Translations under genes and position numbers: made by a program
Part shown: positions 11,848-62,327 of the stretch, one piece after another
Layout: the number at the start of each line of letters is the position of its first letter
Numbering within the stretch: the stretch's first letter is position 1
Notes under the pieces: generated by a model
What the model saw: the letters and a program-made list of their open reading frames with translations, nothing else
Database searches by the model: none
What the model was told of the DNA's origin: nothing
Source: a virus
Reading direction: 5' to 3' (one strand)
DNA: 64,000 nt
IMG/VR virus record: IMGVR_UViG_3300025154_000061
Location: 1 to 64,000 of that record

Positions 11848-12291
11848 ATGACCGCCAAGGGAACGATCAAGGCCGACCATATCTCGACGAACGCGATCAA
11901 GCTGCTCGTGATCGGGCTGCCCGAGTTCGTGATCACCGAGCTTTCGGGGCTCGAAGAGGAACTCGAAACCGTCGAGCTTCCCGACCGCACGGTCGCGTCG
12001 GGCGGGAACACCAAGGCTTCCGAGTTCACCGTCAAGACCCCCATGCACCACCTCGTCGAGCAGGCCGCGTGGGAAGCGTGGTTCAAAGAGGGGCAGGATC
12101 CCGTGTCGCCCCTCTACAAGAAGGCGGGCACGCTCGTTCACCCGTCGATCTCGGGCGGGACGCTGCGCACCTACTCGGTCGTCGGCGTCTTCGTCAAGAA
12201 GCGCAAGCTCCCCGACCTCAACATGAAGGGCGAGGGCGAAATGGCCGTCGTCGAGTGGACGCTCTCGGTCGACGACGTGCTGCCGATCTAG
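11848..12291 (+). CDS. Tail tube protein
   Basis: 147 residues after GAAAGGGGGC. It forms the inner tail tube. The features of Mu/P2-type and T4-type tubes are present: a beta-rich fold, an ELSGLEEELETVELPDRT segment near residue 40 similar to the tube loop/strand, a KTPMHHLVEQAAWEAWFKE helix near 70-90, and ends with strands VVEWTLSVDDVLPI. Position directly after the sheath and before the chaperone is diagnostic. Confidence 0.8.
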   Translation: MTAKGTIKADHISTNAIKLLVIGLPEFVITELSGLEEELETVELPDRTVASGGNTKASEFTVKTPMHHLVEQAAWEAWFKEGQDPVSPLYKKAGTLVHPSISGGTLRTYSVVGVFVKKRKLPDLNMKGEGEMAVVEWTLSVDDVLPI

Positions 12292-12330: not shown

Positions 12331-13236
12331 ATGAGACGGGCTACCGTTGCCGAACTTCGCGACCGCCTACCCGTGGGCAAGGTCGCGGCCGACGGCACCC
12401 GCGCTCGGTCGTTCTCGTTCAAGCGCTGGCGCGGCGCCGACGAACGAGTGATCGGCGCGATCCGAGAAGAGAACCGTTCGATCTCGGCGGGCGCGTTCGC
12501 CGCCGAGGTGCTCGCGCACTTCCTCGCCGACTGGCAGGGCGAGAGCTTCGAGGGGCTGTCGAAGGGCGAGAAGCGCCTTCGGATCTCGCAGTCGTGGGCG
12601 GCCGACGTCTACGCCGCTTGGTTCGAGCTTCGTCGTCGGGCGCTCTCGAACGAGTTCGACTCGCGCCTGCACTGCGCGCAGTGTCGCACGCCGTTCGACT
12701 ACATCGTTGACGTGGGCTCGATCGACTCGCTCGAACTCGAAGACGGCGAGGCGATCTCGACGCCCTTCGCGTTGCGCGACGGGTTGTCGTGGCAGGGGCA
12801 GGATCGCAAGCTCTTGACCCTCGAACCGCTGCGATGGGAAGCCTACGAGGCACTCGCCCCGGGGAACGAGGTCAACCTCGGGACGGTCAAGCTCGCGGTC
12901 TGTGCGAGCGCGATCGTCGGGCTCGAAGGGATCGCCTCGCGGGTGAAGCTCCCGACGACCGCCCTCGACGACCTGTCGAAGTTCGATCTCGAATCGCTCT
13001 CGGCGTGGGTCAACGAGAACCAGCCCGGCCCCGTGCTCTTGATCGAGACGCACTGCCCGAAGTGCAAGGCCCCGATCGCCCGGTCGTTCCCGTGGGTGTA
13101 TGACGTTTTTTTCTCGGCGAAGACTTCTTCGACCTCCGCACCCCTGAGCGGTGGCGCCGGGAAGTCTTCGCCCTTGCCTACGGCGTGCCCGGCTTCACCG
13201 TCGATCTCGACGGGGCAACCCCCGCCGACCGAATAG
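12331..13236 (+). CDS. Tail assembly chaperone, unshifted product (gpG-like)
   Basis: 301 residues; the unshifted product of a two-frame tail chaperone that helps fold or load the tape measure. Position between tube and tape measure and a slippery T TTT TTC at 13,107 define it. Residues ~20-110 are helical (FKRWRGADERVIG, AAEVLAHFLADW); two Cys pairs (CAQC near 113 and CPKC near 243) suggest a zinc ribbon, unusual in lambda-type chaperones. After the slip site the zero frame runs into a 40-residue Ser/Pro/Thr-rich tail and stops at 13,236, which looks like non-conserved read-on. A zinc-ribbon baseplate-hub assembly factor is the alternative. Confidence 0.65.
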   Translation: MRRATVAELRDRLPVGKVAADGTRARSFSFKRWRGADERVIGAIREENRSISAGAFAAEVLAHFLADWQGESFEGLSKGEKRLRISQSWAADVYAAWFELRRRALSNEFDSRLHCAQCRTPFDYIVDVGSIDSLELEDGEAISTPFALRDGLSWQGQDRKLLTLEPLRWEAYEALAPGNEVNLGTVKLAVCASAIVGLEGIASRVKLPTTALDDLSKFDLESLSAWVNENQPGPVLLIETHCPKCKAPIARSFPWVYDVFFSAKTSSTSAPLSGGAGKSSPLPTACPASPSISTGQPPPTE

Positions 13237-13307
13237 CGTGGTTGAAGCTCTTGCGCGAGCAGCAGGCCCGCGAAGAGCGGGCGCGGGCCGACGCCGCGAA
13301 GAAGTGA
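12331..13307 (+). CDS. Tail assembly chaperone, -1 frameshift product (gpGT-like)
   Basis: If ribosomes slip back one base at 13,107-13,113, translation continues LGEDFFDLRTPERWRREV and ends with a charged helix (LREQQAREERARADAAKK) at the TGA 13,305-13,307. The product is 325 residues. This second frame has no start codon, spans 64 codons and stops 11 bases before the tape measure, exactly the arrangement of lambda G/GT and other tail chaperones. The frameshift itself is inferred. Confidence 0.65.
13107..13113 (+). promoter_or_regulatory. Programmed -1 ribosomal frameshift slippery site
   Basis: Zero-frame codons GTT TTT TTC contain the heptamer T TTT TTC, a canonical X XXY YYZ slip site, in a window where such T-runs are rare. 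Slippage places TTT TTT in the -1 frame and opens the downstream chaperone frame. Confidence 0.7.
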
Positions 13308-13317
13308 GGGGGCTACC

Positions 13318-15678
13318 TTGGAACGCCTCGGCCTCGAAGCGGTCTTCGAATTCGACCCCTCGCACGGGATCTCGGGCGCGAAGCGCGCCGAAGTCGCAAT
13401 GAGAGCCCTCGAACGCGGCGTCGACAAGGTCGGCAGCGGCGTTGGAAAGATGGGCGAGGGCTTCCGACAGGCGACCACGGCACTTGCCCCGGCCCTTCTC
13501 GCGGTCGGCGCCGCGACCGCCTTCGCGGTCAAGAACTTCGTCGATTTCAATTCCGAGTTCGCCAAGATCGGGACGCTGCTCGACGGGGGCACTCGCGAGG
13601 CCCGGGGGTTCACCCGGGACGTCGAGCGCCTCGCCTTGCAGTTCGGCAAGGGCACGAAAGACATTCAGGCCGCCATGTTCCAAACCCTGTCGGCGGGTGG
13701 GTCGGCGGCGAAGCACCCGATCGAGGTCTTGAAGGCTGCGGGCATGGCGGCGACGGCGGGCTTCACCACGATCGAGACGGCGGCCGACGGCTTGACGAAT
13801 GTCCTGAACGCCTACGGGATGAACGTCAGCGAGGTTGGGCGGATCAACGACGCCTTCTTCATTGCCAACCGCGAAGGCAAGACCACGGTCGACGAACTCG
13901 CGAAGTCGATAGGGCAGGCCGCCCCGACCGCCGCGCTCGTGGGGGTGCCGCTCGAAGAACTCACGAGCGCGATCGCCCTTATGACCACGCAGGGCATTGA
14001 CACGCAAATGTCGGTCGTGTCGATCAATCAAGCGCTGCTCTCGTTCGTCAAGCCCTCGCGCGAGGCCGCGAAACTGGCCGAACAATACGGGATCGATCTC
14101 TCGCTGTCGGCCTTGAAAGCCAAGGGGTTCCGACAGGCCCTCGCCGACGTGAACGACAAGATCGGCGACAACGAAGACGCGCTCGCCATGCTCTTCGGGA
14201 ACGTGCGCGCCTTCCGCGCCGCCGCCTCGCTGGCAGCCGAGGGCGGCGCCGCCTTCTCGCGCGTGCTCGAAGCGACGCGCACCGAGACGGGGATCACCGC
14301 CGAGAAGTTCCGCGACGTGACGGGCGATATCGGCTTCCAGTTCAAGCGGCTTCTACCTGCGGCCGGGATCGCCGCGAACCGGATCGGGAAGGCGTTCGCC
14401 GAGGTCTTCAACCTCGCTGAAGCGAGCGGGGGCGCTGATTGGATCGAGGCGAACCTCGACCGGATCGAGCAGAAGGCGAAGGCGTTCTTCGCCTCGGTCA
14501 AGCGGGGGTTCAACGAGCTTCGGATCGGCGAGAAGATCGAGGCCGCCCGCGCCGCGTTCGAGCGCCTCGGCAGGTCGATCGACGCGACCTTCGGCAGCGA
14601 GTCGGGGCGGCGCGTCGCCGATATGGCGCTCGCGATCGGTGCGATTGGGATCGTGGCCGCCCCGTTGTTGTTCGCGCTGTCGCCGATCGTCGGGATGATT
14701 GGCGGGATCGGCAAGGCGGCGCTCGGCCTCGGCGAAGCGTTGGGGGGGATCGCGACCACCGTCTCGGGGCTCGGCGCCTCGATCCTCGGTGTCGCTGACG
14801 CGTCGGCGATTCTCGCCGGGGCGGTTGGCGGGGCTGCCGTCGTGGGCGCCGTTGCCGTGGGCGCCGCTGCCGTCGAAGCCTACCAAGACAAGTCGACCGG
14901 GCTCTCGCTGGCGATCGACAACCTGTGGGGCTCGATCAAGAACCTTTGGACCGTGATCGCCGAGTCGGCCGCGTTCATTTCCGCGCAGGCCCCGGGCGCG
15001 TGGCAGGGGTTCGTGAACGTGATCGGCGAGGTCGCTCGCGGCGCGGTTCACCTTCTGACGATCGGGATCGAGCTTCTCGGCGTCGCGTTGAAGGGGGTTG
15101 GGCTCGTGATCGCCGGGATCGTTTGGTTCCTCGACGAGATCGCGCAGTCGATCTCGGCCGTGATTCGCGAGGTGCGCGACGCCTACTACGCCGTCGGGAC
15201 TATGACCGGCCTATGGGAAGACAACCGGGCCGCCGTCGAGCACTACAACCGCGAGGTCGAGCGCACCGTCGCCGCCGCCGAGACGCACCGACAGCAGGTC
15301 GAGATCGACGCGCGCGCCTACCAATCGCTCGCCGCAGCGACCGAGGCCGCCGCGAACGCCGAGAACGCCCTCGCCCGTGCGAAAGACTCGCGCCGGGCGA
15401 GCGAAGCGGGCTACGGCGACGCGCTGACCGACGAGATCCTCTCGGATATCGCCGGGGCGAAGAAGAGCGAGATCGTCGCGACGTCGAACGCAGTTGCCAA
15501 CGCGACGAGCAAGCAGAAGATCGAGGTCACGGCGAACTTGAAGGTCGACGGGCAGACGATGAACGCCGCGACCGGGCGCGCGCAGGTCGAGCTTTCCGAG
15601 CGCGCCGGGGCGAACGTCACCCCGTGGCAGCGTCGAACCATGATCGAGCGCGGCGCGCAGGCCGCGACTGCGGGGTAG
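13318..15678 (+). CDS. Tail tape measure protein (TP901-type)
   Basis: 786 residues from TTG 13,318, after GTGAGGGGGCTACC. It sets tail length and occupies the tube lumen. The TP901 core is visible at ~70-330: FNSEFAKIGTLLDGGTREA, GKGTKDIQAAMFQTLSAGG, AADGLTNVLNAYGM, TTVDELAKSIGQAAPTAA. Gly/Ala-rich hydrophobic segments follow at ~430-560 and ~590-640, as usual for these proteins, then a helical charged region. At the family rule of about 0.15 nm per residue a tail near 115-120 nm is expected (inference). Confidence 0.85.
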   Translation: MERLGLEAVFEFDPSHGISGAKRAEVAMRALERGVDKVGSGVGKMGEGFRQATTALAPALLAVGAATAFAVKNFVDFNSEFAKIGTLLDGGTREARGFTRDVERLALQFGKGTKDIQAAMFQTLSAGGSAAKHPIEVLKAAGMAATAGFTTIETAADGLTNVLNAYGMNVSEVGRINDAFFIANREGKTTVDELAKSIGQAAPTAALVGVPLEELTSAIALMTTQGIDTQMSVVSINQALLSFVKPSREAAKLAEQYGIDLSLSALKAKGFRQALADVNDKIGDNEDALAMLFGNVRAFRAAASLAAEGGAAFSRVLEATRTETGITAEKFRDVTGDIGFQFKRLLPAAGIAANRIGKAFAEVFNLAEASGGADWIEANLDRIEQKAKAFFASVKRGFNELRIGEKIEAARAAFERLGRSIDATFGSESGRRVADMALAIGAIGIVAAPLLFALSPIVGMIGGIGKAALGLGEALGGIATTVSGLGASILGVADASAILAGAVGGAAVVGAVAVGAAAVEAYQDKSTGLSLAIDNLWGSIKNLWTVIAESAAFISAQAPGAWQGFVNVIGEVARGAVHLLTIGIELLGVALKGVGLVIAGIVWFLDEIAQSISAVIREVRDAYYAVGTMTGLWEDNRAAVEHYNREVERTVAAAETHRQQVEIDARAYQSLAAATEAAANAENALARAKDSRRASEAGYGDALTDEILSDIAGAKKSEIVATSNAVANATSKQKIEVTANLKVDGQTMNAATGRAQVELSERAGANVTPWQRRTMIERGAQAATAG

Positions 15679-27363: not shown

Positions 27364-29760
27364 ATGATACGAGCGACCCAAACCGACGCCCGCGTGACCC
27401 TCGATCGCTTCGCCGACGATCGCGACGAGGTCTATCGCCTGCTCGATCGGCGCTTCCGCTACAAGGTCGAGGGCTACGAATACGCCCCCGCCTACCAAGC
27501 TCACCGTTGGGATGGTTGGACGCACCTCGTCAAGAAGGCGAGCGGGGTCGCGCTCGTCGTTCCGCTCGGGATCTGGCCCGAGTGCGCCGAGGTGCTCGCC
27601 GAGAACGGGGTCGAGTTCGAGCACGTCGACGAGCGCCGCCCGGTCGCGCCGCTCGACGGCGACGTCGAGTGGGTCGGCCCGACGCTGCGCGACTACCAAC
27701 GCGAGGCCCGCGACGCCGCGATCGCCTCGGGCTCGGGGGTCTTGAAGCTCCCGACCCGCGCGGGGAAGACCTTGATCGCCGCCTCGATCGCGCACGCCCT
27801 ACGCCTGCGGTCGATCTTCGTCGTGCCTTCCGAAATGCTGCTACGTCAGACCGCCGCCGCGTTCGCGAAGGCCCTCTCGGGGCTGCGCGTCTCGACGATC
27901 GGCGACGGCGAGTGGGATAGTTCGGGCGACGTGGTCGTCGCGACGATTCAAACCTTGTCGGCCGTGATAGAGACGAGGCGCTTTCGCACGCTCTCGCGCT
28001 CGTTCGATATTGCTTTTATTGACGAATGCTTTCCGGCCGGGACGCTCGTTGACGGCGTCCCGATTGAGGCGATCCGTGAGGGCGATCTCGTGACAGCCTA
28101 CGATCCCGACTCGGGATCGTTCTCTTCGCGGCGTGTCGCACGCACGTTCAAGCGTCCGGCCCCCGGGGGGCTCGTGACGATCGCCACGACGGCCGGGACT
28201 GTCTCTTGCACGCCGAATCACCCGTTCTTCACCCGGCGTGGTTGGGCGGCCGCCGGGGTGCTTGACGTTGGCGAAATGGTGGCTTACGCTACCGGCCCGA
28301 CGGGGTTAGATGAAAGGGGCGGGGATGAAGCGCAAGGTGATTCAGGGGAAGTGCGTCGAGTGCGGCTCGCAGATCGAGATCGTGGGATACAATCGGTGTC
28401 ACCTTTACGAGACGACGGGCCGGGGGTACTGCTCGGAAGTCTGCAAAAAGACTTGGATGTCCCGCCGTTGGTCAGAAACGATGGCCCGCACGAATCGAGT
28501 TTACGCGTCGGCGAGGATGCGCAAGCACAACCCGATGCACGACCCCGAAGTGCGCGAGGCCGTGACTGCGAAAGCTCGGGCTCGTGGTTGGCCTGTCGGC
28601 GTGCCGCGAGGGGGGAACGGGCACGGGCCGACGAGCGCGCAATCGACGTTGGCACTCGCTCTTGGCTGGGCGATCGAAGTAGCTGTGCCGACGGGCAGGG
28701 GGGCTCGCGCGAAGGGATTCCCGCCTTGCTACAAGATCGACGTAGCGAATCCGGCCGCGAAGATAGCCGTCGAGATCGATGGATCGGGGCACACCTCGAC
28801 GCGCGTCAAGCTAGCCGACGAGCGCAAGGCCGCGTTCTTGCGTGGGCTCGGGTGGAAAGTATTACGATTCAAGAATCAGGAAGTGATATCGGATCTTCCG
28901 ACGGTGATTGCCTCGATTATGTCTACAATTTAGAAGTCGAGGGCGTGCATACATATACGGCGAATGGCTTTGTCGTGCATAATTGCCACCACCTCTCGGG
29001 GCAGGGCGACGCGTGGCGCGCCGCCGCGAATGCGATCGAGGCCCGGCACCGCTTCGGGCTGTCGGCAACGGTCGGGCTCGACCCCGTCGGCGAGAACGAT
29101 GCAACCGACGTTTGGCTTCGCGCCGTCTGCGGCCCGATCGTCTACGAGGTTGCGATCTCGACCTTGATCGAGGCGGGTTACCTCGTGCGGCCGACGATCC
29201 GCTTTTTGCGCCACGGGGCGCCCGATCTGCCTTACGACCGTTGGTCGACGCGCGCCTACGCCGACGGGATCTCGAAGTGCGAGAAGCGCAACGAGAGGAT
29301 CGTCGCCGAGGCTGCGCGCTACGCGGGGCGCGGGCTGCGCGTGCTCGTCGACGTCGCCCGCGTGGGGCACGCCCGAGCCCTCGCCAACGCCTGCGCAAAG
29401 GCCCTTCCGCCCGGCCGGGTCGCCCTACTGCTCGGCACCTCGTCGGGCGACGAGCGCGCGGCCGTCGTGGCGTCGTGGCGTCGTGGCGAAGTGCTCGTCG
29501 TGGTCGGGACGATCCTCGGCGAAGGCGTCGACATTCCCGAACTCTCGGTCGTGATCAACGCCGAGGGGGGCAAGGCGAACGTCTCGGGGCTTCAACGCCT
29601 GCGCAACCTGACGCTCTCGCCCGGTAAGACCGAGGCGATCGTCGTCGAGTTTCTCGACACGCATCACCCGCACCTCTGCGATTGGACGGCACGCCGCCTC
29701 GCGCTCTACAGGCGTGAACGCGCCTTCAAGATCGAGGCTGAACCGAAGGGGGCAACGTGA
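27364..29760 (+). CDS. SF2 (UvsW-like) DNA helicase interrupted by an intein
   Basis: A 798-residue precursor: 479 residues of helicase plus a 319-residue intein (222-540). The helicase probably unwinds branched DNA or drives branch migration. Walker A is LPTRAGKTLIAAS (~128-140); the DECH box is split as FIDE|CHHLSG around the intein; motif III-like FGLSATVG follows; the C-terminal lobe has LGEGVDIPELSVVI and QRLRNL (motif VI, lacking the usual Gly-Arg). The ~105 N-terminal residues resemble the UvsW DNA-binding domain (YKVEGYEYAPAYQAHRWDG). No clear ribosome binding site precedes the ATG. Splicing is needed to rebuild the ATPase site. Confidence 0.8.
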   Translation: MIRATQTDARVTLDRFADDRDEVYRLLDRRFRYKVEGYEYAPAYQAHRWDGWTHLVKKASGVALVVPLGIWPECAEVLAENGVEFEHVDERRPVAPLDGDVEWVGPTLRDYQREARDAAIASGSGVLKLPTRAGKTLIAASIAHALRLRSIFVVPSEMLLRQTAAAFAKALSGLRVSTIGDGEWDSSGDVVVATIQTLSAVIETRRFRTLSRSFDIAFIDECFPAGTLVDGVPIEAIREGDLVTAYDPDSGSFSSRRVARTFKRPAPGGLVTIATTAGTVSCTPNHPFFTRRGWAAAGVLDVGEMVAYATGPTGLDERGGDEAQGDSGEVRRVRLADRDRGIQSVSPLRDDGPGVLLGSLQKDLDVPPLVRNDGPHESSLRVGEDAQAQPDARPRSARGRDCESSGSWLACRRAARGERARADERAIDVGTRSWLGDRSSCADGQGGSREGIPALLQDRRSESGREDSRRDRWIGAHLDARQASRRAQGRVLAWARVESITIQESGSDIGSSDGDCLDYVYNLEVEGVHTYTANGFVVHNCHHLSGQGDAWRAAANAIEARHRFGLSATVGLDPVGENDATDVWLRAVCGPIVYEVAISTLIEAGYLVRPTIRFLRHGAPDLPYDRWSTRAYADGISKCEKRNERIVAEAARYAGRGLRVLVDVARVGHARALANACAKALPPGRVALLLGTSSGDERAAVVASWRRGEVLVVVGTILGEGVDIPELSVVINAEGGKANVSGLQRLRNLTLSPGKTEAIVVEFLDTHHPHLCDWTARRLALYRRERAFKIEAEPKGAT
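28262..28290 (+). promoter_or_regulatory. Candidate internal promoter for the nested endonuclease
   Basis: TTGACG (28,262-28,267), 17 bp, TACGCT (28,285-28,290), 34 bp before the endonuclease ATG at 28,325. It lies inside intein coding sequence. It would let the endonuclease be made independently of the helicase. Confidence 0.4.
28325..28933 (+). CDS. Vsr/DUF559-like homing endonuclease nested in the intein in another frame
   Basis: 202 residues. ATG 28,325 has AAAGGGGCGGGG directly upstream; an ATG at 28,310 is an alternative. The N-terminus is a zinc-finger-like Cys cluster (CVECGSQ, GYCSEVCKK), then a basic DNA-binding region, then a PD-(D/E)XK fold of the very-short-patch-repair type: KIDVANPAAKIAVEIDGSGH (Glu, Asp and His candidate catalytic residues) with ADERKAAFLRGLGWKVLRF. 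This matches the EDxHD homing endonucleases known from fractured inteins. Its reading frame differs from the helicase-intein frame, and its stop overlaps the intein block F codons. It probably mobilises the intein. Confidence 0.75.
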   Translation: MKRKVIQGKCVECGSQIEIVGYNRCHLYETTGRGYCSEVCKKTWMSRRWSETMARTNRVYASARMRKHNPMHDPEVREAVTAKARARGWPVGVPRGGNGHGPTSAQSTLALALGWAIEVAVPTGRGARAKGFPPCYKIDVANPAAKIAVEIDGSGHTSTRVKLADERKAAFLRGLGWKVLRFKNQEVISDLPTVIASIMSTI

Positions 29761-43567: not shown

Positions 43568-44172
43568 CGACGTCGCCCGCTGCCCGGCACAAGGCCGTCG
43601 GCCGCACGTTCACGCTCGACGGGGGCGAACGCGTGACGCTGCTCGTTGGGGATCTCTTCCCGGGCGAGGATCTCGACGAGGAAGCCGGTTGGTTGTCGTC
43701 GACGATCGGGCTCGTCGGGGAACTGCTCGGGCAGACGACGCACGCGCTCGAACGCGAAGACGCCGCCTATCGACGTTGGCGCGCGGGGGCTTCGCGCGAC
43801 GTGCTCGCCAGCGAGCCGAAGACCCCCGAATGGAAGATCAAGCACGAGGTCGAGAACGACCCGAAGTTCGAGGCGTTCAAGAACCGGGTCGCCGCGCTCG
43901 AAGGCGACAGCGAGTTCTTGCGCGCCTATCACGACGCGCTGCGCACCAAGTCGAGCATGATCCGCGCCCGGGTGGAACTGCGCGGGGGCGAGCGCCGCTC
44001 GCAGCACGAGCCCGACACGCGCGGGGACGAGGAACGAGGATCGGCCGGGGGTGTCACCCGGCCGCGCTTCTACGAGCCCGAGGTTCGCGAGCCGACCGCC
44101 GATCGTGCGGCCCGCGTGCGAGAGGCTCTCGCGAACGGCAGGAAATCACCGAAGGAAGGGGAACGGCAATGA
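43564..44172 (+). CDS. Unknown protein between HU and SSB
   Basis: 202 residues from a GTG overlapping the HU stop. A basic N-terminus, a middle helical region (DLDEEAGWLSSTIGLVGELL, then KIKHEVENDPKFEAFKNRV) and YHDALRTKSSMIRARVELRG near 120-140; the C-terminus is charged and disordered. It is coupled to HU and SSB, so a recombination or replication accessory is likely, but I do not recognise it. Confidence 0.5.
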   Translation: MTTSPAARHKAVGRTFTLDGGERVTLLVGDLFPGEDLDEEAGWLSSTIGLVGELLGQTTHALEREDAAYRRWRAGASRDVLASEPKTPEWKIKHEVENDPKFEAFKNRVAALEGDSEFLRAYHDALRTKSSMIRARVELRGGERRSQHEPDTRGDEERGSAGGVTRPRFYEPEVREPTADRAARVREALANGRKSPKEGERQ

Positions 44173-45461
44173 GTCTCGATCTTGGCAAGCTGCGCGATCG
44201 CCACGCGCAGGGGAAGCGTTTCGCTGGCGGCGACAAGGGGTCGTTCTTGAAGATCCCCGACGGCCTCTCGACCTACTACCTCGTCGCGCCGACCGAGGCA
44301 ATGGGGGGGATCCCGTTCGTCGAGTTCCTCGTTCACCGCGAGGTCGGCCCCGAAGGCAAGATGACCGTGTGTCTCGCCGACGAGAACGAGATCTTGCGCG
44401 ACCCGAGCGTCGCGCCCGCGCTGCGCGAGAAGGGCGTCGACGTCGGTCGCTGCCCGGTCGACGACTTCCTCGCCGACGACGCGGCGGCCGCGTCGCTGCC
44501 CGAGGTGAAGCTCGCGAAGATGGTCGCGAAGCCGCAATATCTCTTCGCGGTCGTGCCGTGGGAAATCCAGAACGCGGCGGGCGAACTCGTGCCCCTGCCC
44601 GACGGCGATCGCGTGCCCCGCCCGCTCTTCTGCGGCCCGCAGATATGGGATGGGATCTGCGACGTGATCGAGGCCGAGGGCAACGTCACCGATCCGAACG
44701 CCGCGATCTTGATCCGCATCAAGAAGAGCGTCGTCAAGAAGCGCACGAGCTACAAGGTCGAGGTCGACACCCGCTGCATTCGCGAGCCGATTCGGATCTC
44801 GAAGTCGACCAAGGCCGCGATCGCCGCCGCCTGCGCCTCGACGGGCGACTGCAACCTCTTCCGCATCGTCGTCAACATGACGAAGAGCGCCGACGTCGTC
44901 GACGCCTTCCTGCGCGGCGACACGGTCGAGACGCGCACGACGACCACGGGCGACGCCAAGCCGCACTGTTACTCGAAGGATCACGACCACGACGACGACG
45001 AGTGTCGCGTCTGCGTCTACGAGGTCGACTGCGCGAAGGCGTGCGGCACCGCGCCGTTCAAGGGCGCCGACAAGCCCGCGCCGCGTGGCGCCGTGACCGC
45101 CGCGCCCGCCACGAAGCCCGCCCCGGCCGCTGCCGCCGTCAAGGCGCCCGCCGCCCGCGCGGCCGCCCGGCCCGCGACGCCGCCGCCCCCGCCGCCCGAA
45201 GAGGAAGAACCCGAGTTCGACGCCGACCCGCCCGCGCCCGAACCGCCCCCGCCGCCGCCGCCCGCGCGTCGTCGTGCGGCGACGCCCCCGCCGCCGCCCG
45301 AGCCCGAGAGCAGCGTCGACGACGCGTTCCCCGACGAGCCCGAGCCCGGCGACGAGCCCGAGCCCGCCGAGGCCCCCGCCGCCGCGCCCGTCGACGAGGA
45401 TCCCCTCGCCGAGATCGACCGCGAACTCGAAGCCCGCCGCGCGCGCAAGGGCGCCCGTTAG
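44169..45461 (+). CDS. gp32-like single-stranded DNA-binding protein
   Basis: 430 residues, ATGA overlap. It would coat ssDNA during replication and recombination. The N-terminal ~300 residues resemble phage gp32-type SSBs: basic start (GKLRDRHAQGKRFAGGDKGS), a long OB-like region and a His/Cys cluster (HCYSKDHDHDDDECRVCVYE, CAKACG) that could hold zinc. The last ~130 residues are Pro/Ala/Glu/Asp-rich with an acidic stretch, as in SSB tails, then a basic end. It directly precedes RecA. The family call is from architecture and context. Confidence 0.6.
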   Translation: MSLDLGKLRDRHAQGKRFAGGDKGSFLKIPDGLSTYYLVAPTEAMGGIPFVEFLVHREVGPEGKMTVCLADENEILRDPSVAPALREKGVDVGRCPVDDFLADDAAAASLPEVKLAKMVAKPQYLFAVVPWEIQNAAGELVPLPDGDRVPRPLFCGPQIWDGICDVIEAEGNVTDPNAAILIRIKKSVVKKRTSYKVEVDTRCIREPIRISKSTKAAIAAACASTGDCNLFRIVVNMTKSADVVDAFLRGDTVETRTTTTGDAKPHCYSKDHDHDDDECRVCVYEVDCAKACGTAPFKGADKPAPRGAVTAAPATKPAPAAAAVKAPAARAAARPATPPPPPPEEEEPEFDADPPAPEPPPPPPPARRRAATPPPPPEPESSVDDAFPDEPEPGDEPEPAEAPAAAPVDEDPLAEIDRELEARRARKGAR

Positions 45462-45496
45462 AACCTTCAACCCGGGAACTTGATCGAGGTCTTTCA

Positions 45497-46633
45497 ATGT
45501 CGCACCGTGGCGCGTTCAGCACGAAGAAGGCGAAGTCGATCGCGAGCGCCCTCGCCCGCGATAAGGCGTTCGCCGAGTTCGACGATATCGTCGCGACGCG
45601 ACGACGCACGACCTCGATCTCGACGGGGTCGCCAACCCTCGATCTCGCAATCGGGATCGGGGGTTGGCCCCTCGCCCGGCTCTCGATCCTTCACGGGGGC
45701 GAGGCGACCGGCAAGACGACGATCGCTCTCGAAGCGGTCGCGCAGTGGCAGCGCGCCGGGGGCGTCGTGCTCTACGCCGACGTCGAGCACGCGCTCGATC
45801 TCGACTACCTCGCCCGCGTCGTGCCCGATCCCGAGGGGATCATTCTGACGCACCCGCCCTATATCGAGAAGGGCTTCGAGTTGTTCGCCGCCTTCATCGA
45901 TCGGGCGCGTGCCGCGAGCGTCGACGCGCCGCTCTTGATCGTGCTCGACTCGTTGCAGGCGTGGCCCGCAATGCGCACGTTCAACGGCGAGTATGATCGC
46001 CAGGACTACGGCCCCGAGGCGAACGCCTATTCGCGCGTGCTGCGCAAGTTCACCCCCAAGCTCTCGACGAGCAACACCGCCATGATCGCGATCTCGCAAG
46101 TGCGAACCAAAATGGACGGGTGGGGGAACTCGAAAGAGAAGGTCGGCGTCGGTCAAGCGCCGCTCTTCTATGCCAGCGTGATCGCCGACGTGAAGTCGAA
46201 GACCTTGCGCGGCACGACCGCCGAGGGCGTGACCGGGAATCACCTTCGGGTTCGCGTCGTCAAGAACAAGGTCGCCCCGCCGTTCCGCACGGCCGAGTTC
46301 GAGATCATCTTCGGCAAGGGCTTCGACCGCGTGCGCGCGCTCGTCGACTGCGCCAAGACGATCGGCGTCGCCCGTGCCTTGAAGGGGAAGATCCTTTGGA
46401 CGATCGACGGCGCCAAGGCCGACGCCTCGGGGCGAGCCTACGAGTGGGCGGCCGACGATCTGTCGAGTCTGCTCGTGAAGGCGCCCGACCTCTACGACGG
46501 GCTCTTCGATCACGTTCACGATCTGCTAGTCGCCCGGCCCGACTTGATCGCGGTCGAGGTCGACGCCAGCCCCGCCGAGATCGACCTCGACGCGCCGCCC
46601 GCCGACGCGCCCGAAGACGAGGGCGACGCGTGA
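45497..46633 (+). CDS. RecA-like recombinase
   Basis: 378 residues, ATG 45,497. Forms filaments on ssDNA for strand exchange. STGSPTLDLAIGIGGWPLAR opens the core; Walker A HGGEATGKTT (~77), the VLYADVEHALDLDY catalytic-Glu strand, Walker B LLIVLDSLQAW (~150), the loop region RVLRKFTPKLSTSNTAMIAI and the QVRTKMDG motif follow. The C-terminal ~30 residues are acidic. No intein, although RecA is a frequent intein site. Confidence 0.8.
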   Translation: MSHRGAFSTKKAKSIASALARDKAFAEFDDIVATRRRTTSISTGSPTLDLAIGIGGWPLARLSILHGGEATGKTTIALEAVAQWQRAGGVVLYADVEHALDLDYLARVVPDPEGIILTHPPYIEKGFELFAAFIDRARAASVDAPLLIVLDSLQAWPAMRTFNGEYDRQDYGPEANAYSRVLRKFTPKLSTSNTAMIAISQVRTKMDGWGNSKEKVGVGQAPLFYASVIADVKSKTLRGTTAEGVTGNHLRVRVVKNKVAPPFRTAEFEIIFGKGFDRVRALVDCAKTIGVARALKGKILWTIDGAKADASGRAYEWAADDLSSLLVKAPDLYDGLFDHVHDLLVARPDLIAVEVDASPAEIDLDAPPADAPEDEGDA

Positions 46634-60750: not shown

Positions 60751-60779
60751 CCAACCCCGCACGCCAAGCCGACCCGCGA

Positions 60780-60859
60780 ACAATCGACACAAGCCCTTCG
60801 CTTTTTTCTTGCGACGTTTACGCCCTAGACGTAAAAGGAAGGCGTCGGCAATGACGCCG
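60780..60859 (+). repeat. Duplicated 80-bp promoter/leader, copy 1
   Basis: Differs at one base from 62,248-62,327. It contains a T-run, TTGCGA (60,809-60,814), 17 bp and TAAAAG (60,832-60,837), then AAGGAAGG and an inverted repeat GGCGTC/GACGCC. A promoter for the gene at 60,874 fits. A mini-ORF MTPRRG with a good Shine-Dalgarno (ATG 60,851) is also present and could be a leader peptide. Confidence 0.6.
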
Positions 60860-62205: not shown

Positions 62206-62247
62206 ACAGCCCTATCGCTCGGCCTCGCCTGCCGTGCGGCCTTCCCG

Positions 62248-62327
62248 ACAATCGACACAAGCCCTTCGCTTTTTTCTTGCGACGCTTACGCCCTAGACGT
62301 AAAAGGAAGGCGTCGGCAATGACGCCG
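62248..62327 (+). repeat. Duplicated 80-bp promoter/leader, copy 2
   Basis: Near-identical to 60,780-60,859 (one difference, C at the fourth base of the spacer region). TTGCGA (62,277-62,282), 17 bp, TAAAAG (62,300-62,305). The mini-ORF also starts MTPRRG but here runs on 16 codons in a different frame from the gene at 62,344, which favours a promoter function over a conserved peptide. Confidence 0.6.

Follow-up and report, generated by a model that had tools for sequence, protein, structure and literature searches.

The gene directly ahead of the tape measure gene in this virus raises the question of what it makes: its 0-frame ORF carries two cysteine pairs, and an open -1 frame runs on from a string of T's near its 3' end. 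An earlier note had read the locus as a lambda-type chaperone with a frameshift, merged with or derived from a zinc-ribbon baseplate factor. We analyzed the first 64 kb (64,000 nucleotides; here called the window) of a 92,259-base IMG/VR virus record with a G+C content of 68%. The gene order is sheath, tube, chaperone gene, tape measure, CIS_tube-like protein, and, further along, genes of the tail and baseplate (Table 1), and the virus is one with a contractile tail, a myophage. We conclude that the gene very probably encodes a T4-type (PF12322, gp26/gp51-like) tail assembly chaperone expressed with programmed -1 ribosomal frameshifting. Elsewhere in the window, a 529-aa ORF (153 to 1742) has a C-terminal phage serine protease domain (PF14550), a ResIII helicase ORF (27364 to 29760) contains the intein splicing domain PF14890, and an 860-aa ORF (44051 to 46633) has a RecA domain at residues 519 to 758 only.

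Table 1. Features of the chaperone locus and its neighbors in the window
Feature	Coordinates	Strand	Basis or remark
Tail sheath gene, 931 aa	9004..11799	+	phrog_23 tail sheath, E 8e-23
Tail tube gene	11848..12291	+	PF06841, E 8e-6, slightly under the curated cut-off
Short form, 0-frame ORF, 301 aa	12331..13236	+	ATG at 12331, stop at 13234-13236
First cysteine pair, CAQC (C115 and C118), codons 115-118	12673..12684	+	
Second cysteine pair, CPKC (C242 and C245), codons 242-245	13054..13065	+	
Slippery heptamer, T TTT TTC	13107..13113	+	X XXY YYZ register, context GTT TTT TTC
-1-frame extension, 64 aa plus stop	13113..13307	+	Codon log-odds; extension profile
RNA hairpin, 14-bp outer stem, beginning 2 nt past the heptamer	13116..13172	+	Predicted folding
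Tape measure protein gene, TTG start	13318..15678	+	PF10145, E 2e-28; phrog_991

The coordinates, the T TTT TTC site, the -1 frame, and the CAQC and CPKC pairs were all found as the earlier note had given them, and codon scores place the frame switch beyond chance. The -1 frame is open from 13104 to 13304, with a stop codon at 13305 to 13307, and the product after a shift would have 325 aa. Under codon log-odds, with 12 other genes of the window as the training set, the 0 frame scored +209 bits upstream of the site and -16 bits in its tail, and the -1 frame downstream of the site scored +52 bits over 64 codons. As a control, we scored 6,451 64-codon windows in the -1 frame of the 12 other genes; none reached +52 bits (maximum, -17). 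The last 40 codons of the 0-frame ORF (13114 to 13233) look noncoding; in the short form they would give a low-complexity tail of 40 residues, exceeding that of the IMG/VR relatives described below. Long open frames are abundant in high-GC DNA, and the -1 frame might in principle be open by chance, with the short protein alone being made and serving some other role in the hub. This reading is contradicted by the codon scores and also by the profile match and the family-wide conservation presented below, and we give it almost no weight.

Codon usage also sets the site itself apart. TTT is scarce in the 12 genes (15 TTT versus 267 TTC among 282 Phe codons) and absent from the 11 Phe codons of the chaperone gene ahead of the site, and the sole run of seven T's in the whole 64 kb starts at 13106. 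Two further copies of TTTTTTC, at 60802 and 62270, were rejected as shift sites because the ORFs that overlap them look noncoding (-110 and -215 bits, respectively). Both copies lie within a 105-nt direct repeat (60755 to 60859 and 62223 to 62327; 88% identity), and the stretches around it are likewise noncoding in appearance.

The heptamer is followed by a predicted RNA hairpin with a folding energy of -35.4 kcal/mol (z = -4.34), a value that none of 200 shuffled sequences equaled; 28 of 6,394 60-nt windows fold equally well. The hairpin may act as a frameshift stimulator. No comparable hairpin was present in three relatives, and Rfam had no match at the shift site.

The -1 frame might instead be a second gene, translated independently as a small protein. 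Such an arrangement has precedents, as a contractile injection system relative in S. clavuligerus has a separate overlapping -1 ORF and Synechococcus phage Bellamy is annotated in this way. In the window, however, the -1 frame has no ATG, GTG, or TTG before 13185, a position that already lies within the conserved motif of the extension, and separate initiation therefore cannot yield the whole extension. The same test is weak in the relatives because 32 of 54 of them carry some start codon upstream in the -1 frame. We regard two separate genes as very unlikely for the window and retain frameshifting as the explanation.

Relatives had to be reached through intermediates. Used directly as a query, the window core found no close relative in phage records, IMG/VR, or GTDB contigs, and the window tape measure and hub proteins found none in IMG/VR contigs; a DnaE query matched four contigs, none of them with a chaperone or PF10145 match. 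Sheath matches in Rhizobium phage IC12 and Prochlorococcus phage P-SSM7 were rejected, being located away from the tape measure gene, and Erwinia phage 2910A had no zinc-ribbon gene at its sheath-match locus. A scan of eight records with PF12322 gave two subthreshold matches only. Sheath matches on plasmids led to injection-system loci in which a tube-adjacent gene encodes two CxxC pairs and a C-terminal motif, and these proteins were assembled into an alignment (A1). Pairwise and single-sequence profile comparisons of the window protein with gp26, gp51, and A1 were weak. Searching with A1 matched 13 of 297 genomes in the phylum of an Acidobacteriota genome and 6 of 398 in the phylum of a Paracoccus genome. 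One match (L041) is probably due to chance, and in another (L039) the N-terminal part is divided between two frames, perhaps by an assembly error. Two Acidobacteriota loci have the extension in the -1 frame: L028, with nine T's past the second cysteine pair, and L040, with GGT TTT TTG and, by eye, a tape-measure-like ORF downstream. With the core of L040 as a query, we obtained 57 IMG/VR loci.

At 54 of these 57 loci, an in-register T TTT TTN follows the second cysteine pair and leads into a -1 extension. Two of the other three (L093 and L095) end at a contig edge before the site, and the third (L097) has a -1 extension without a T-run. The extension is 53 to 56 residues long in 53 of the 54 and is cut by the contig end in one. 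The 54 loci represent 43 distinct genes and, because they are related, their counts are not independent events. Selection on the heptamer is seen in codon choice. The first slip codon is TTT at 54 of 54 loci, compared with 54 of 217 Phe codons elsewhere; the codon before the slip site ends in T every time; and the Leu codons at the slip site are TTG or TTA in 52 of 52 cases, compared with 112 of 1,164 Leu codons elsewhere. The earlier note had staked the frameshift on whether relatives keep the -1 frame. The frame is conserved at these loci, and the codon switch, the conserved site, and the profile matches together bear out a -1 frameshift chaperone directly before the tape measure gene.

Two other ways of joining the frames can be weighed against the same loci. 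Slippage of the RNA polymerase rather than the ribosome on the T-run would agree with the seven T's at the window site and the nine T's in one injection-system relative. Nearly all loci of the large relative set, however, have just six T's, and six are too few for typical transcriptional slippage. What is constrained, moreover, is a heptamer in codon register, with a last base that can be G, A, or C. We therefore consider transcriptional slippage improbable. An assembly error, with a true sequence that encodes the long form in frame as in the injection systems, has in its favor the existence of relatives with in-frame fusions, but the out-of-frame layout recurs in the same register in 54 contigs and is also found in isolate phages, which makes such an error extremely improbable. 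Programmed ribosomal frameshifting remains our reading of the site.

The same relatives place the gene in a family. The conserved gp26/gp51-type core corresponds to residues 1 to 261 of the 0-frame ORF. All four cysteines (C115, C118, C242, and C245) are invariant in the 26 rows of the core alignment (A2), window included, as is E38; the cysteines plausibly bind zinc, which would hold the core together. The window protein had no match to PF12322 in Pfam at an E value of 10 or lower and no significant match in PHROG. We built profiles from 43 cores and their extensions, leaving the window out; the cores came from 21 of the 54 IMG/VR loci, L040, 11 other loci, and 10 injection-system proteins. 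Among 919 six-frame segments, the core profile ranked the window target first (E = 1e-12; next best, 0.6), and the extension profile ranked the window -1 segment first (E = 7e-4; next best, 1.1). All 10 relatives that were scanned exceeded the PF12322 cut-off and matched phrog_150 ("baseplate hub").

T4 gp26 and gp51 both belong to PF12322, and they were the top two of 121 T4 segments searched with the core profile (E = 4e-8 and 0.003, respectively). The extension profile did not find the gp51 tail directly among the T4 segments. It matched the extension of phage Bellamy (E = 3e-7 at Z = 100), which as a query in turn placed gp51 first of 121 segments (E = 0.0024); with the SRB7757 extension as the query, the gp51 tail ranked only fourth (E = 0.68). 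The link between the window extension and gp51 runs via Bellamy. Predicted structures are consistent with these results. An AlphaFold2 model of the window core, of moderate quality (mean pLDDT, 64.5), had 20 matches in BFVD with an E value of 0.001 or lower, several of them named as baseplate hub proteins. The best was a "baseplate hub assembly protein, bacteriophage T4-like" (E = 1e-8), and a "baseplate hub subunit" of SP-15 was also matched (E = 6e-5); TM scores of the top matches were about 0.55 to 0.65. Foldseek against the PDB and a PDB sequence search gave no credible solved structure resembling the core. For one injection-system relative, the long form yielded only a poor model (pLDDT, 42), which was left unused. 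Taken through the intermediates and the fold similarity, the window gene is probably a distant relative of PF12322 (gp26/gp51). The suspected kinship with a zinc-ribbon hub assembly factor thus holds up. The idea of a merger does not: the PF12322 protein with its cysteine pairs is itself the chaperone core, in many myophages and injection systems, to which the shift adds a short C-terminal extension, and therefore nothing was merged.

Next to the IMG/VR contigs, we examined nine named phages, one per group, plus Bellamy, among the 40 listed of 78 matching records. Together with L097, all 11 loci had, by eye, an extension out of frame with the core. By the same inspection, six of the extensions are in the -1 frame: those of the LR756511 phage, SRB7757, PA5oct, XacN1, and Bellamy are entered at T TTT TTC or T TTT TTT, and that of L097 has no clear shift site. 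The extension is in the +1 frame in SP-15, LIS04, GXN1, LuckySocke, and LR756508. At the point of entry into the +1 frame, LIS04, SP-15, and GXN1 (L101, L103, and L105) have NCC CGA TT in common, a possible +1 shift site, and LuckySocke has CTC TGA; these +1 sites were likewise read by eye and are weaker inferences. The annotated records either lack the extension or label it as a separate gene (Bellamy 11 and LuckySocke 91).

Contractile injection system relatives include in-frame fusions of core and extension. In the S. clavuligerus injection system (L010:7170-7816), a gene with one CxxC is followed by a -1 ORF that overlaps it at GTGA and scores to DUF6760 (PF20546), a family of small ORFs. 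Two injection-system relatives have extensions that score to this family, at E values of 3e-4 and 0.006, which do not reach the curated cut-off; the window extension has no match to it. We lean, at somewhat better than even confidence, toward a single ancestral two-form chaperone, a zinc-ribbon core with a helical extension, behind both contractile phages and extracellular contractile injection systems. Its decoding would have switched repeatedly, between a -1 slip at T TTT TTN, a +1 slip, two genes as in T4, a separate overlapping ORF, and an in-frame fusion, with injection systems often having the long form only. A testable question follows: what makes phages retain both forms, when in many injection systems the long form seems to stand alone.

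Frameshifted chaperones of the lambda G/GT type were reportedly described by Xu in 2004. The roles of the lambda short and long forms are given in PMC2147016 and PMC12846349. The window gene is like lambda G/GT in its organization, with a short and a long form related by a -1 shift directly before the tape measure gene, whereas a family search of the Pfam/PHROG type detected no sequence relation between its protein and lambda-type chaperone families. In the mechanism that we propose, most ribosomes would keep to the 0 frame, yielding the short core protein with its four cysteines, and slippage at T TTT TTC would lead a minority to the 325-residue long form. By analogy with lambda G/GT, the abundant short form would coat the tape measure protein through its core, and the rarer long form would recruit tube subunits through its 64-residue charged C-terminal extension. 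The mixed complex would template polymerization of the tail tube and depart before the virion is complete. We infer the production of both proteins and their ratio, as well as, from lambda, the tape measure and tube subunits as binding partners.

The tail assembly chaperones of T4-like phages were reportedly described by Vladimirov et al. in 2022. As paraphrased in PMC10274946, that study (Vladimirov et al. 2022) has T4-like phages carrying two chaperone genes, one short and one long, in place of frameshifting; we take the genes meant to be 26 and 51. In a T4 review (PMC3004832), gp26 and gp51 are classed as chaperones of hub assembly. Like the window protein, both have a core with two cysteine pairs, and gp26 is short and gp51 longer, with a C-terminal extension. 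One pair in each T4 protein is atypical (CxC in gp26 and CC in gp51), T4 uses two separate genes where the window has one gene with a -1 shift, and the window protein has diverged too far to match PF12322 itself. A very diverged myophage gene, with its missing half out of frame, is thereby placed in the gp26/gp51 chaperone family. Since the annotated phages that we surveyed have the extension unannotated or called as a separate gene, a simple rule would repair such annotations: seek a T-run or a +1 site past the second cysteine pair, ahead of the tape measure gene.

Our literature search found no report of frameshifted or fused forms of a gp26/gp51-type chaperone in injection systems or of +1 forms in SP-15-like phages; as subscription papers were mostly outside its coverage, these results are no proof of novelty. 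Among systems in print, the Bacillus phage 0305phi8-36 has a two-gene chaperone in which, according to PMC2147016, the G and GT relation is achieved by paralogous genes with no frameshift. Set beside the window by description, it has paralogues where the window has a -1 shift, and zinc is nowhere mentioned in the paper. PMC12846349 describes conserved -1 frameshifting, at a GTTTTT motif, for the tail assembly chaperone of Vandenendeviridae and Andersonviridae. As described there, these phages are like the window in shifting by -1 on a T-run that lies at the short form's 3' end and in having an extension that runs up to the tape measure gene. T4-type chaperones are thus already in print, as is T-run frameshifting for other myophages, and the window gene is a diverged relative.
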